Origin: Pseudophaeobacter arcticus DSM 23566
GTDB lineage: Bacteria > Pseudomonadota > Alphaproteobacteria > Rhodobacterales > Rhodobacteraceae
Reading direction: 5' to 3'
Assembly: GCF_000473205.1 (NCBI RefSeq)
Contig: NZ_KI421507.1
Span: forward strand, 469,934 to 533,933
DNA length: 64,000 bases
The notes under the pieces are model-generated. The model was not told the DNA's origin. It ran no database searches and saw nothing but the letters and a program-made list of their open reading frames with translations. Positions 19,872-37,961 of the stretch are shown piece by piece; position 1 is the stretch's first letter, and every line of letters starts with the position of its first letter. The position numbers and the translations under genes are program-made.

Positions 19872-20056
19872 TGGGAGAACCGTCGCTGCGCAGAGGGACC
19901 TTTGGGGTCTGTGCGCAAGCCCGGTGCCGAAGGAGCAACCGCCCCGGAAACTCTCAGGCAGCAGGGACCTTATACGCAAAAGACTCTGGAGAGAGCGCGG
20001 GGAGAGCCCGCGCCGCCGAAGGGATAACGATCTCAGGCAACCGGACAGAGGGGGCA
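19872..20056 (+). promoter_or_regulatory. Tandem glycine riboswitch
   Basis: Two glycine aptamers in series. The first (about 19872-19992) has GGTGCCGAAGGAGCAA, ACTCTCAGGCAGCAGGGACC and closes with GACTCTGGAGAG. The second (about 19993-20056) has GGGGAGAGCCC, GCCGCCGAAGGGATAACG, ATCTCAGGCAA and CCGGACAGAGGGG. These CCGAAGGRG and CTCAGGCA words are the class signature; the tandem form is the usual on-switch for glycine cleavage operons. Downstream, a hairpin at 20135-20160 (TTCCAG...TGGAA arms around a CCCC/GGGG core) may be the expression platform before gcvH. Confidence 0.93.
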
Positions 20057-20217
20057 TCAAACTGTGCGGGCTTTTGCGCGCGCGGGGATGCCGGAGAGAC
20101 TTGACCAGATCCCACTGATCAAGCCGGCCCAAGTTTCCAGATCCCCTTTGGGGGCTGGAAGGCCAGATCAAACCACCGGGCAAGGTGCTCCGGGGCAAGC
20201 ATGACGGGATGACGACG

Positions 20218-34530: not shown

Positions 34531-34870
34531 GGCGTGCCGGGAAGGACACTGCCCAAAGGTTTCGCGTGCGAAACGAATTAGGGGTCTGGTAACCTTGCCT
34601 CGGGCGCTCTTAATTCGGCGCGCGGCGGTGGGGGCTGGCCTGTTCAGGCCTGTCTGCAGAGGCGGGGCAATTACAGGCCTCGGCCGCGGAGCTGGATCAG
34701 GTGCAGCATCTGGCGATTGCGGTTGTGGCGCGTGATGCTCTTGTCAAAGTTAGACAGTTTGGCTTGTTCGGACAGATGCCGTGGCGGCCTGTTGCGCCCA
34801 TAGTCCGGCAAGATGACCCGTGACGGGATGGGGGCTTCGGCTGCGATACTCGGCGCGGGTACAACCCTGC

Positions 34871-34899
34871 TTTACCCCGGCTCATAGTCGTCCTATAAC
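34871..34899 (+). promoter_or_regulatory. Promoter of the ileS leader
   Basis: TTTACC (34871-34876) and TATAAC (34894-34899) are separated by 17 bases. The predicted +1, seven bases after the -10 hexamer, is 34906, which is the A of the leader-peptide ATG. Confidence 0.6.
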
Positions 34900-34905
34900 G
34901 CCTGC

Positions 34906-34956
34906 ATGTCCGATATCCTGGCCATCATTATTCGAATTATATCCCCGGCGCTCTGA
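34906..34956 (+). CDS. Isoleucine-rich leader peptide of ileS (candidate attenuator)
   Basis: A 16-codon ORF, MSDILAIIIRIISPAL, with six isoleucine codons (residues 4, 7, 8, 9, 11, 12), 89 bases upstream of the ileS start. Its ATG coincides with the predicted transcription start, so the RNA would be leaderless, as is known for trpL of Sinorhizobium. Directly after the isoleucine codons comes segment 1 (34944-34953), which pairs with segment 2 (34963-34973). Segment 2 can alternatively pair with segment 3 (34978-34981), and 3 with segment 4 (34993-34997). No strong T-run follows, so the output step is unclear. It is too short to be found by ORF callers. Confidence 0.65.
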   Translation: MSDILAIIIRIISPAL

Positions 34957-34997
34957 TCATATGAGACGCCGGGCAAAGGCGCTTGAGCCATCGCGCC
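34944..34997 (+). promoter_or_regulatory. Mutually exclusive stems between leader peptide and ileS
   Basis: Stem 1:2 is CCCGGCGCTC (34944-34953) with GAG-A-CGCCGGG (34963-34973), 10 pairs and one bulged A; the leader stop codon lies in its loop. Stem 3:4 is GGCGC (34978-34982) with GCGCC (34993-34997). Stem 2:3 is CGCC (34967-34970) with GGCG (34978-34981). A ribosome stalled at the isoleucine codons would cover segment 1 and favour 2:3 over 3:4. Upstream, 34531-34870 holds nothing else that I recognise. Confidence 0.5.
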
Positions 34998-35045
34998 GAA
35001 CCGAATATCCAGATTTCCGAACCGATTATCCAAAGGACGCCACCC

Positions 35046-37961
35046 ATGTGCGCCGACACTGCTGATACCCCTGAATACAAACAGACCCTGAACCTGCCAA
35101 AGACGGATTTCCCCATGCGCGCGGGCCTGCCCAAGCGCGAGCCCCACTGGCTGGAGCGCTGGGCCAAGATCGGCGTCTATGACCGGCTGCGCGAAAAGAC
35201 AGGGCGCACGCCTTTCACGCTGCATGACGGGCCGCCCTATGCCAACGGCCATCTGCACATCGGTCACGCCTTGAACAAGACCATCAAGGACATGATCGTG
35301 CGCTCGCACCAGATGATGGGCTTTGACGCGCGCTACGTGCCGGGCTGGGATTGCCATGGCCTGCCCATCGAGTGGAAGATCGAAGAACAGTACCGCAAGA
35401 AGGGCAAGAACAAAGACGCCGTTGACGTGGTCGAGTTCCGCCAGGAGTGCCGCGCCTTTGCCGACAAATGGGTGGATATCCAGCGCGAAGAGTTCAAGCG
35501 CCTTGGCATCACCGGCAACTGGGCTGATCCCTATCTGACGATGGATTTCCACGCCGAGGCGGTGATCGCGGCGGAATTCCAGAAGTTCCTGATGAACGGC
35601 ACGCTGTATCAGGGCTCGAAACCGGTGATGTGGTCGCCGGTGGAAAAAACCGCCCTGGCCGAGGCCGAGGTGGAATATCACGACAAGGAAAGCTTTACCG
35701 TCTGGGTGAAATTTGCCGTCACCGGCGGATCTGATGATCTGGCGGGCGCTCATGTGGTAATCTGGACCACCACCCCCTGGACCATGCCGTCCAACAAGGC
35801 TGTCGTTTACGGCGACAGCTTTGACTACGGCCTGTACGAGGTCACCGACGCGCCGGAAGAATGCTGGGCCGCCAAAGGCGACCGTTTTATCCTGGCCGAC
35901 AAACTGGCCGCTGACGTGATGAGCCGCGCCCGCCTGGAGGAGGGCCAGTATACCCGCGTGCGCGCCGTGCCTGCGGATGAGCTGGCAAACCTGCAACTGT
36001 CGCACCCGCTGGCTGGCGCAGAGGGCAGCAATGGCGAATGGGATGCGCCGCGTGATTTCCGCGCCGCACCTTTTGTCACCGACGAAGAAGGCACCGGCTT
36101 TGTGCACTGCGCGCCAAGCCACGGGATGGAAGAATTTGAGCTTTACCGCGATCTGGGTATGCTCGAGCAGGTCATCACCTATAACGTGATGGACGATGGC
36201 GGCTTCCGCGCTGATCTGCCGTTCTTTGGTGGCAAATATATCCTCAACCGCAAGGGCGGCGAGGGCGATGCAAACAAGGCGGTGATCGACAAGCTGGTCG
36301 AGGTCGGCGGCTTGCTGGCGCGTGGCAAGATCAAACACAGCTACCCGCATTCCTGGCGCTCCAAGGCGCCGATCATCTATCGCAACACGCCGCAGTGGTT
36401 TGCCAGCGTTGACCGCCCCGTTGGCGATGGTCAGGACGAGATGGGCACAACCATCCGCGAACGCGCCCTGCGCTCGATTGACGAGCTGGTGAAATGGACC
36501 CCGCAAAAGGGCCGCAACCGGCTCTATTCCATGATCGAAGCCCGCCCCGACTGGGTGCTGTCGCGTCAACGCGCCTGGGGCGTGCCGCTGACCTGCTTTG
36601 TGAAAAAGGGCCTGTTGCCAACGGATGAGGGCTTTTTGCTGCGCGATGATGCGGTGAATGCCCGGATCGTCGCAGCCTTTGAAACCGAAGGCGCCGATGC
36701 CTGGTATGCGCAGGGGGCCAAGGAGCGGTTCCTGGGATCGGAGTATAATGGGGAGGAGTGGGAACAGGTCTTTGACGTGCTCGACGTCTGGTTTGATTCC
36801 GGCTCAACCCATGCCTTTGTGCTGCGCGACCGCAAAGACGGCACCGAAGATGGCATTGCCGATGTCTATATGGAAGGCACCGACCAGCACCGGGGCTGGT
36901 TCCATTCCTCCCTGCTGCAGGCCTGCGGCACCAAGGGCCGTGCACCTTACAGAAACGTTGTCACCCATGGGTTTACCCTGGATGGCAAGGGCAACAAGAT
37001 GTCCAAATCCCTGGGCAATACCATCGTCCCCGAGGAGATCGTCAATCAATACGGCGCCGATATCCTGCGGCTCTGGGTGGCGCAGACCGATTATACCTCG
37101 GATCAGCGCATCGGCCCCGAGATCCTGAAAGGCACCGCCGACAGCTATCGCCGCTTGCGCAACACCATGCGCTATATGCTGGGCTCGCTGCATGACTTTA
37201 CCGATGATCAGCGCGTTGATGCTGGCGATATGCCCGAGCTGGAGCAATGGGTGCTGCATCGACTGGCCGAGCTGGATCACCAGGTCCGCAACGGCTATCA
37301 AGCCTTTGATTTCAACGGTGTCTGGCAGGCGATTTTTACCTTTGCCACCGTTGATCTTTCCGCCTTCTACTTTGATGTGCGCAAGGATGCGCTGTATTGT
37401 GATGGCGATACGCTGAATGCCCGCGCCGCCCGCACGGTGCTGGATATCCTGTTCCACCGGCTCACCACCTGGTTGGCGCCAATCCTGGTGTTCACCATGG
37501 AAGAGGTCTGGCTGGAGCGTTTCCCCGGCGAGGCCAGCTCGGTGCATCTGGTGGATATCCCCGACACCCCGGCGGATTGGCTGAACGAGCCGCTTTCGGC
37601 CAAATGGGCCAAGATCCGTCAGGCCCGCCGGGTGGTAACAGCGGCGCTGGAAGTGCAGCGCGTCGACAAGGTGATCGGCGCCTCGCTGGAGGCAAATCCG
37701 GTGGTACATGTGCGCGACCCAGAGGTGCTGGACCTGCTGAAATCGGTGAATTTTGCCGATATCTGCATCACCTCCGACATCTCGCTCACCAATGACCCGG
37801 CCCCGGCAGAGGCCTTCCGTATGCCCGAAGTTGACGGGATCTCGGTGGTTTTTGAAAAGGCTGAAGGCGATAAGTGCCAGCGGTGCTGGAAAATCCTGCC
37901 GGATGTTGGCACCCATTCCCACGCTGGTGTCTGCGGCCGCTGCGAGGCAGCCCTGAGCTGA
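35046..37961 (+). CDS. ileS: Isoleucyl-tRNA synthetase
   Basis: A 971-residue class Ia synthetase. The HIGH motif is in ANGHLHIGHALNK (near residue 70) and KMSKS in GNKMSKSLGN (near 650). The editing domain lies between them (WTTTPWTMPSN, GTGFVHCAPSHG). The C-terminal zinc finger is CQRCW and CGRCEAAL at the very end. The bacterial-type zinc-bearing form is complete. The ATG at 35046 follows AAAGGA; an in-frame upstream start at 34983 lies inside the leader structures and is unlikely. Expression is probably controlled by the leader peptide at 34906. Confidence 0.97.
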   Translation: MCADTADTPEYKQTLNLPKTDFPMRAGLPKREPHWLERWAKIGVYDRLREKTGRTPFTLHDGPPYANGHLHIGHALNKTIKDMIVRSHQMMGFDARYVPGWDCHGLPIEWKIEEQYRKKGKNKDAVDVVEFRQECRAFADKWVDIQREEFKRLGITGNWADPYLTMDFHAEAVIAAEFQKFLMNGTLYQGSKPVMWSPVEKTALAEAEVEYHDKESFTVWVKFAVTGGSDDLAGAHVVIWTTTPWTMPSNKAVVYGDSFDYGLYEVTDAPEECWAAKGDRFILADKLAADVMSRARLEEGQYTRVRAVPADELANLQLSHPLAGAEGSNGEWDAPRDFRAAPFVTDEEGTGFVHCAPSHGMEEFELYRDLGMLEQVITYNVMDDGGFRADLPFFGGKYILNRKGGEGDANKAVIDKLVEVGGLLARGKIKHSYPHSWRSKAPIIYRNTPQWFASVDRPVGDGQDEMGTTIRERALRSIDELVKWTPQKGRNRLYSMIEARPDWVLSRQRAWGVPLTCFVKKGLLPTDEGFLLRDDAVNARIVAAFETEGADAWYAQGAKERFLGSEYNGEEWEQVFDVLDVWFDSGSTHAFVLRDRKDGTEDGIADVYMEGTDQHRGWFHSSLLQACGTKGRAPYRNVVTHGFTLDGKGNKMSKSLGNTIVPEEIVNQYGADILRLWVAQTDYTSDQRIGPEILKGTADSYRRLRNTMRYMLGSLHDFTDDQRVDAGDMPELEQWVLHRLAELDHQVRNGYQAFDFNGVWQAIFTFATVDLSAFYFDVRKDALYCDGDTLNARAARTVLDILFHRLTTWLAPILVFTMEEVWLERFPGEASSVHLVDIPDTPADWLNEPLSAKWAKIRQARRVVTAALEVQRVDKVIGASLEANPVVHVRDPEVLDLLKSVNFADICITSDISLTNDPAPAEAFRMPEVDGISVVFEKAEGDKCQRCWKILPDVGTHSHAGVCGRCEAALS

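Follow-up and report, generated by a model that had tools for sequence, protein, structure and literature searches.

A conserved leader peptide and hairpin ahead of ileS in Pseudophaeobacter arcticus, part of a predicted isoleucine-responsive module in Alphaproteobacteria

We analyzed a stretch of 64,000 nucleotides (nt) from Pseudophaeobacter arcticus DSM 23566 (contig NZ_KI421507.1, positions 469,934 to 533,933; the whole stretch is called the window). In this window ileS, the gene for isoleucine--tRNA ligase (35046-37961; TIGR00392, E 1.6e-230), is preceded by a leader that is quite likely an isoleucine-responsive leader-peptide regulatory module of this gene. All features given here lie on the plus strand. 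The leader open reading frame (ORF; 34906-34956) is predicted to be leaderless; it encodes MSDILAIIIRIISPAL followed by a stop codon, has 16 codons of which six are for isoleucine, and ends 89 nt ahead of the ileS ATG (35046). Codons 7 to 9 form a run of isoleucine codons, ATC ATT ATT (34924-34932), which is followed by the core CGAATTA (34933-34939), read as the codons CGA and ATT and the first base of the next one. The hairpin behind it, H1 (34944-34973), holds the leader stop codon in its loop and consists of seven pairs (34944-34950 with 34967-34973) and three more (34951-34953 with 34963-34965), with A34966 bulged. A second stem, H2 (34978-34997), pairs 34978-34982 with 34993-34997, and the Shine-Dalgarno-like sequence of ileS is AAAGGA (35032-35037), similar to AAGGA or GAGGA in many relatives. 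An initial annotation, made from the letters of the window, had described the ORF with its six isoleucine codons, a TTTACC-N17-TATAAC promoter, H1, H2 and the 89-nt distance to ileS; these coordinates were confirmed from the sequence, as was the identity of ileS by TIGR00392. An ORF-plus-hairpin module of the same kind is conserved ahead of isoleucine-related genes across Alphaproteobacteria and is predicted to be, probably, a sensor of isoleucine supply. That charging of tRNA-Ile controls ileS, as the initial annotation had proposed, can be inferred with good reason and stands as a prediction.

Folding of the window leader was only mildly above that of shuffled sequences (z -1.55; 13 of 200 shuffles folded equally well), and consensus scans of the leader called neither a promoter nor a terminator. 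The case for the leader therefore rests on comparison, and conservation is what we take as decisive for its being more than chance. A DNA search of 100 relatives yielded 57 usable family ileS upstream regions, the window included; one region at a contig end (G004) and two family genomes with no match were left out. Since 11 of the leaders belong to the genus of the window, counts per genus would be lower than the family counts given here. The strict core CGAATTA-N4-CCCGG was found in 54 of the 57 (all except L039, L059 and L061). Among these 54, an ATG stood nine codons ahead of CGA in 41 and in frame at another distance in the remainder, and all 54 had a stop codon within eight codons of the core start. 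Isoleucine occupied codons -3, -2 and -1 in 32, 44 and 32 of the 54 leaders, respectively, versus 0 to 12 at codons -9 to -4, and the isoleucine codons at -2 changed synonymously across the family (ATT, 23; ATC, 17; ATA, 4). Among the matches listed, 80 of at least 119 stretches, the genomes with ATH-ATH-ATH-CGAATTA were mostly those of Ruegeria, Leisingera, Roseovarius, Sulfitobacter and other Rhodobacteraceae. The alignment of relatives suggested in the initial annotation thus showed a conserved frame and conserved isoleucine codons with synonymous change, together with compensatory pairs in H1 and H2, and the leader withstood a refutation through nonconservation.

The pairing was examined in an alignment of 52 family leaders (A1), which excludes the three leaders lacking the core and two whose hairpins carry long inserts. 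In A1, 95.3% of the H1 cells and 87.8% of the H2 cells were paired. The two stems together showed 25 double-change cells versus 6.0 in shuffled alignments (0 of 500 shuffles), and partners slid by 1 to 3 columns gave at most 56.2% paired cells and at most 20 double-change cells. A 2:3 pairing, 34967-34970 with 34978-34981, can also be drawn in the window sequence. Its partners were complementary in 83.8% of the A1 cells, compared with at most 51.7% after sliding, but double-change cells did not exceed those of the shuffles. Of the alternative stems in the initial annotation, H1 and H2 are thus supported by covariation, whereas the 2:3 pairing shows none above shuffles. The absence of a T-run that had been noted for the window extended to most of its relatives, with no T-run conserved in the family: a run of 5 or 6 T followed H1 in 5 of 54 leaders (L011, L021, L031, L034 and L042) and a run of 4 T in 6 further ones, while the longest in the window was 3. 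A Y|G step was present 11 to 12 nt past H1 in 38 of the 52 leaders, which is suggestive of a hairpin pause site after H1, though one confounded with H2.

Outside the family, the pattern CGAATTA-N4-CCCGG-N10..40-CCGGG was found in 107 of 387 alphaproteobacterial genomes, while the pattern reversed as a control matched twice. Of 299 genomes sampled from the phylum, 66 matched, comprising 62 of 113 alphaproteobacterial genomes and 4 of 186 from other classes; by this sequence search, the core plus H1 is a class-specific module. One genome can carry several copies, and a "near"-mode search for plasmid copies found none. We inspected 89 distinct copies, from 30 loci and 60 remaining matches chosen for family spread, minus duplicates. 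An in-frame ATG was present within 25 codons upstream of CGA in 85 of the 89, versus 2 and 15 for the two remaining frames, although the search pattern carries no ATG requirement. A stop codon followed within eight codons of the core in 59 of the 89. In leaders outside the family, isoleucine made up 42 of 504 (8.3%) and 43 of 405 (10.6%) residues versus 3.1% and 3.5% in other frames of the same DNA, an enrichment whose P values ignore relatedness. The inner five pairs of H1, which the search pattern leaves free, covaried in two ungapped alignments of class hairpins: 39 double-change cells versus 14.1 shuffled in A3 (30 sequences) and 25 versus 6.2 in A4 (29 sequences), each with 0 of 500 shuffles, while slid versions reached 20 (A3) and 12 (A4).

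The genes behind the module pointed in the same direction. Directly downstream lay ileS in 44 of the 89 copies (IleS motif within 280 nt) and a small ACT gene in 34, with ileS coming next in two of these (L080 and L081). Two further copies stood directly ahead of a gene whose best matches in NCBIfam were threonine ammonia-lyases, and in L137 the ACT gene with the module was followed by a threonine ammonia-lyase-like gene. Altogether, the gene next to the module was ileS, an ACT gene or a threonine ammonia-lyase-like gene in 80 of the 89 copies, which thus have an isoleucine theme. Over 94% of its length, the ACT protein of L106 was identical to a protein for which PF26954 is the precomputed domain, and many relatives are named "acetolactate synthase small subunit" by one source. 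In a Pfam scan, the L106 protein had a sub-threshold ACT_AHAS_ss match and three other ACT-like proteins had no match; for the remaining ACT genes the assignment comes from phmmer comparison with L106 and L115. It is the threonine ammonia-lyase-like gene in L137 and the following ileS in L080 and L081 that tie this uncharacterized ACT protein to isoleucine. Of 32 ACT-gene copies, 18 had a leader extending past H1; 16 of these leaders end close to an ATG of the ACT frame or beyond it. An overlap of the leader ORF with the ACT-frame ATG resembling translational coupling was seen, for example, in L072, L082, L119 and L120. Of the remaining copies, one had a downstream gene with no match (L078) and one had ileS only 1.2 kb downstream (L149).

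The position of the promoter suggests that transcription begins on the leader itself. In the window, the -35 element TTTACC (34871-34876), whose first T is invariant in A1, is separated by 17 nt from the -10 element TATAAC (34894-34899), which ends 6 nt ahead of the leader ATG. TATA occurred 30 to 50 nt ahead of CGA in 50 of 52 family rows, and 40 of these 50 had a -35 element of the CTTGAC/CTTTAC/CTGGAC type at a distance of 15 to 19 nt. Across the class, a -10-like hexamer ended 5 to 8 nt ahead of the in-frame ATG in 36 of 85 copies versus 2 to 5 at control gaps. In Methylorubrum extorquens DM4, differential RNA sequencing placed an ileS transcription start site (TSS) on an A 150 nt upstream of ileS, behind TTCCCC-17-TAGAAG-cgctcca, as given in the tabulated part of that source (PMC9320726). 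Two of our leaders (L300 and L315) carry TTCCCC-N17-TAGAAG-CGCTCC-ATG with the ATG exactly 150 nt ahead of ileS. Because both the promoter letters and this distance agree, the published TSS is most simply read as the A of the leader ATG, with the table letters ambiguous by one base and the kinship of L300 and L315 to M. extorquens taken from the promoter match. TAGAAG-N2..9-ATG-N15..40-core was present in 57 of 111 genomes of that genus sample. From the promoter spacing and the TSS in a relative, the leader ORF is probably leaderless, with transcription beginning on the A of its AUG.

We then folded the window leader under the constraint that a ribosome occupies the 12 nt that follow the first A-site base. 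The predicted probability of H1 was 0.99 to 1.00 with codons 7 to 9 in the A site, 0.70 with codon 10, and 0.14 with the invariant ATT, codon 11; with codon 12 or any later one it was 0.00. In this model the invariant ATT is at the turning point of H1 opening. The 2:3 pairing did not exceed 0.04 at any ribosome position tried, and H2 stayed above 0.9. Since only H1 changed with simulated occupancy, H1 would be the element in the window that a leading ribosome can switch.

Several of the following results weigh against an isoleucine-sensing leader of ileS. In a less biased sample, made up of 60 of 77 genomes, each from another family than that of the window (two own-family genomes, one region at a contig end and 14 weak matches were dropped), the exact core was present in only 15 ileS upstream regions. 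A near match with the isoleucine codon kept was seen in six more (L321, L335, L341, L350, L360 and L376), of which L350 had no in-frame ATG; the small AT-rich genome of L376 again had a leader reading I-I-I-R-I-I ahead of a hairpin. A one-mismatch match in L359 resembled chance inside a coding frame, and in the remaining upstream regions of the 60 the similarity to the core was no better than in shuffles. In genomes lacking the module (L063-L065, L068, L070 and L071), ileS often stood directly behind an ORF resembling what we take to be the end of ribF. Many ileS leaders outside the family have no isoleucine run, and Methylobacterium-like leaders have few isoleucine codons. The threonine ammonia-lyase-like protein scored below the curated cutoffs of NCBIfam, and the module also preceded four NTF2-like genes (L092-L095) and three AAA_33 P-loop genes (L110, L141 and L158) with no known link to isoleucine. 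The accessibility of the ileS Shine-Dalgarno sequence and start in the window was nearly constant across ribosome positions, and over 52 family leaders the mean accessibility of the ileS start codon was 0.42 with no ribosome, 0.54 to 0.55 with a stalled one, and 0.43 with one at the stop codon. Sequestration of the ileS start site was rejected as an output, given the nearly flat accessibility in the window and the small mean shift in the family (0.42 to 0.55).

No intrinsic terminator was conserved either, by a consensus scan of the window and by T-run inspection and folding of the 54 family leaders. This bears on the initial annotation's "classic four-segment attenuator" and on the alternative of classic transcription attenuation, in which H2 or an H1 arm would terminate transcription, intrinsically or through Rho, under control of the 2:3 pairing. 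The few leaders with 5 or 6 T after H1 (5 of 54), the covariation of H2 and the 83.8% complementarity of the 2:3 partners would suit such classic transcription attenuation. However, the 2:3 pairing neither covaried above shuffles nor became populated in the constrained folding, where it stayed at or below 0.04 while H2 remained formed, and the window and most of its relatives lack a T-run. Nor does the textbook geometry apply, as a ribosome on isoleucine codons 7 to 9 leaves H1 intact and opening comes only from about codon 11. We therefore set the four-segment description aside and regard classic attenuation as unlikely.

A further difficulty is that CGA ATT is free of synonymous change in all 54 family leaders with the core; the search pattern imposes this, yet only 3 of 57 leaders lack the core. 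Such invariance exceeds what codon choice alone explains. One alternative is an RNA recognition element, CGAAUUA with a CCCGG/CCGGG hairpin, to which IleRS, another protein or isoleucine itself would bind, with the reading frame being secondary. The nearly invariant 7-mer (54 of 57 family leaders) and the several copies possible per genome would fit such an element, as would the presence of TTCG, which could pair with CGAA, within 24 nt after H1 in 33 of 76 compact class copies versus 10.2 in shuffles. In 13 class copies TTCG began 9 nt past H1, and a helix CGAAU/[AG]UUCG is possible from the sequence, one that lies beyond the reach of covariation because the search pattern fixes one side. Against this, the in-frame ATG (85 of 89), the stop within eight codons (59 of 89), the isoleucine enrichment and the synonymous isoleucine changes suggest that translation matters; moreover, outside the family the pattern itself accounts for most of the invariance, and near matches with changes exist. 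We consider a purely RNA-based element improbable, about as much so as classic attenuation. Arrest by the nascent peptide, in which a C-terminal R-I-x-x-P-A would stall the ribosome with no sensing of isoleucine, accords with the peptide being best conserved at RI[ITS]xP[AV]. But the R and I codons are almost devoid of synonymous changes (one ATC, in L321), unlike what a purely peptide constraint would leave, and the downstream genes share the isoleucine theme. The P-A codons overlap the H1 stem, so their conservation has another cause. Nascent-peptide arrest is therefore a very remote prospect.

For the isoleucine-responsive leader, we propose the following sequence of events. From the promoter spacing and the TSS in a relative, the RNA would start on the A of the leader AUG, and a ribosome would begin the 16-codon peptide there. 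When Ile-tRNA is scarce, the ribosome would stall on the isoleucine codons ahead of CGA and leave H1 free to form; the hairpin begins 8 nt past the first base of the invariant AUU codon. When Ile-tRNA is plentiful, the geometry suggests that the ribosome would cross CGA-AUU, reach the stop codon within the H1 loop and hold H1 open. H1 would thus be the switch, with the position of the ribosome at CGA-AUU deciding whether it forms. Because no intrinsic terminator is conserved, H1 would probably be read out by RNA polymerase, as a pause hairpin or through Rho access, or by coupled translation. Polymerase pausing or Rho may serve for ileS; for the ACT copies translation seems likelier, since many of their leaders pass H1 and stop near or beyond the ACT-frame ATG. 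In the family of the window, the isoleucine run and H2 would join a class-wide core that elsewhere also precedes ACT and threonine ammonia-lyase-like genes. A broader proposal is that of a class-wide isoleucine regulon under one leaderless module, in which the CGA-AUU pair, fixed 8 nt ahead of the hairpin, would act as both codon sensor and RNA signal, with an output that is not a terminator and is probably translational in many ACT copies, where the leader ORF overlaps the start codon. We put this forward tentatively and judge it somewhat more likely to need revision than to hold as a whole.

The trp, his and ilv operons and pheST are controlled by ribosome-mediated leader-peptide attenuators. 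The leader of the window resembles these attenuators, including the ilv and pheST ones, in its short ORF with the relevant codons, its hairpin overlapping the stop codon and the synthetase gene downstream; with six isoleucine codons in 16, the ORF is rich in codons for the regulated amino acid. It differs from them in being predicted to be leaderless, in the near-invariant nucleotide core within its codons, in lacking both a terminator and support for a 2:3 pairing, and in the place of its isoleucine run upstream of H1. The module would work like a leader-peptide attenuator but lacks two defining features, the alternative pairing and the terminator. T-boxes, which bind tRNA directly, occur upstream of ileS in Firmicutes. 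Both they and the module, the latter by prediction, are RNA controls of ileS; direct tRNA binding is the feature of the T-box. No covariance-model match to a T-box was obtained, the only match in the window at gathering score in Rfam 15 being a glycine riboswitch. On the module itself, no Rfam family reached gathering score in the window or in 20 class loci (46,295 bases), and an E-value scan of 34800-35060 gave one sub-threshold viral family. In Actinobacteria, both a T-box upstream of ileS and leader-peptide attenuators of trp, trpS and leuS have been described, according to the section consulted of PMC1262725. Sinorhizobium trpL (peTrpL) is likewise a leaderless attenuator ORF, hence a leaderless leader peptide in an alphaproteobacterium; unlike the leader of the window it serves trpE, and the CGAATTA core does not appear in the accessible portion of that paper (PMC10117765). 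The initial annotation knew of no isoleucine leader reported for ileS among these bacteria, to which a caveat must be added: Schrader et al. (2014) named a Caulobacter "ileS leader CDS (CCNA_03934)" (coding sequence) and used it as a negative control in a ribosome-profiling study (PMC4117421). This is likewise a small coding sequence upstream of ileS in the same class, whose sequence, isoleucine codons and mechanism are not described in the available part of that article. It was the one direct mention obtained by full-text searches of open-access papers for an ileS leader or attenuator, which may have missed other work, and the portion seen of a survey of premature terminators does not mention ileS (PMC2965389).

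If the prediction is correct, Alphaproteobacteria share an RNA/peptide circuit that links IleRS and isoleucine synthesis to isoleucine supply and fills a role that T-boxes have in other bacteria. The small uncharacterized ACT (PF26954) protein would then be predicted to act in isoleucine metabolism. The leader ORF would have codons frozen at the nucleotide level and no terminator, so that its output step is open to direct tests in Caulobacter, Methylorubrum or Ruegeria.

Elsewhere in the window, the glycine riboswitch (RF00504, 46.2 bits) that was its sole Rfam match at gathering score lies at 19976-20058 on the plus strand.

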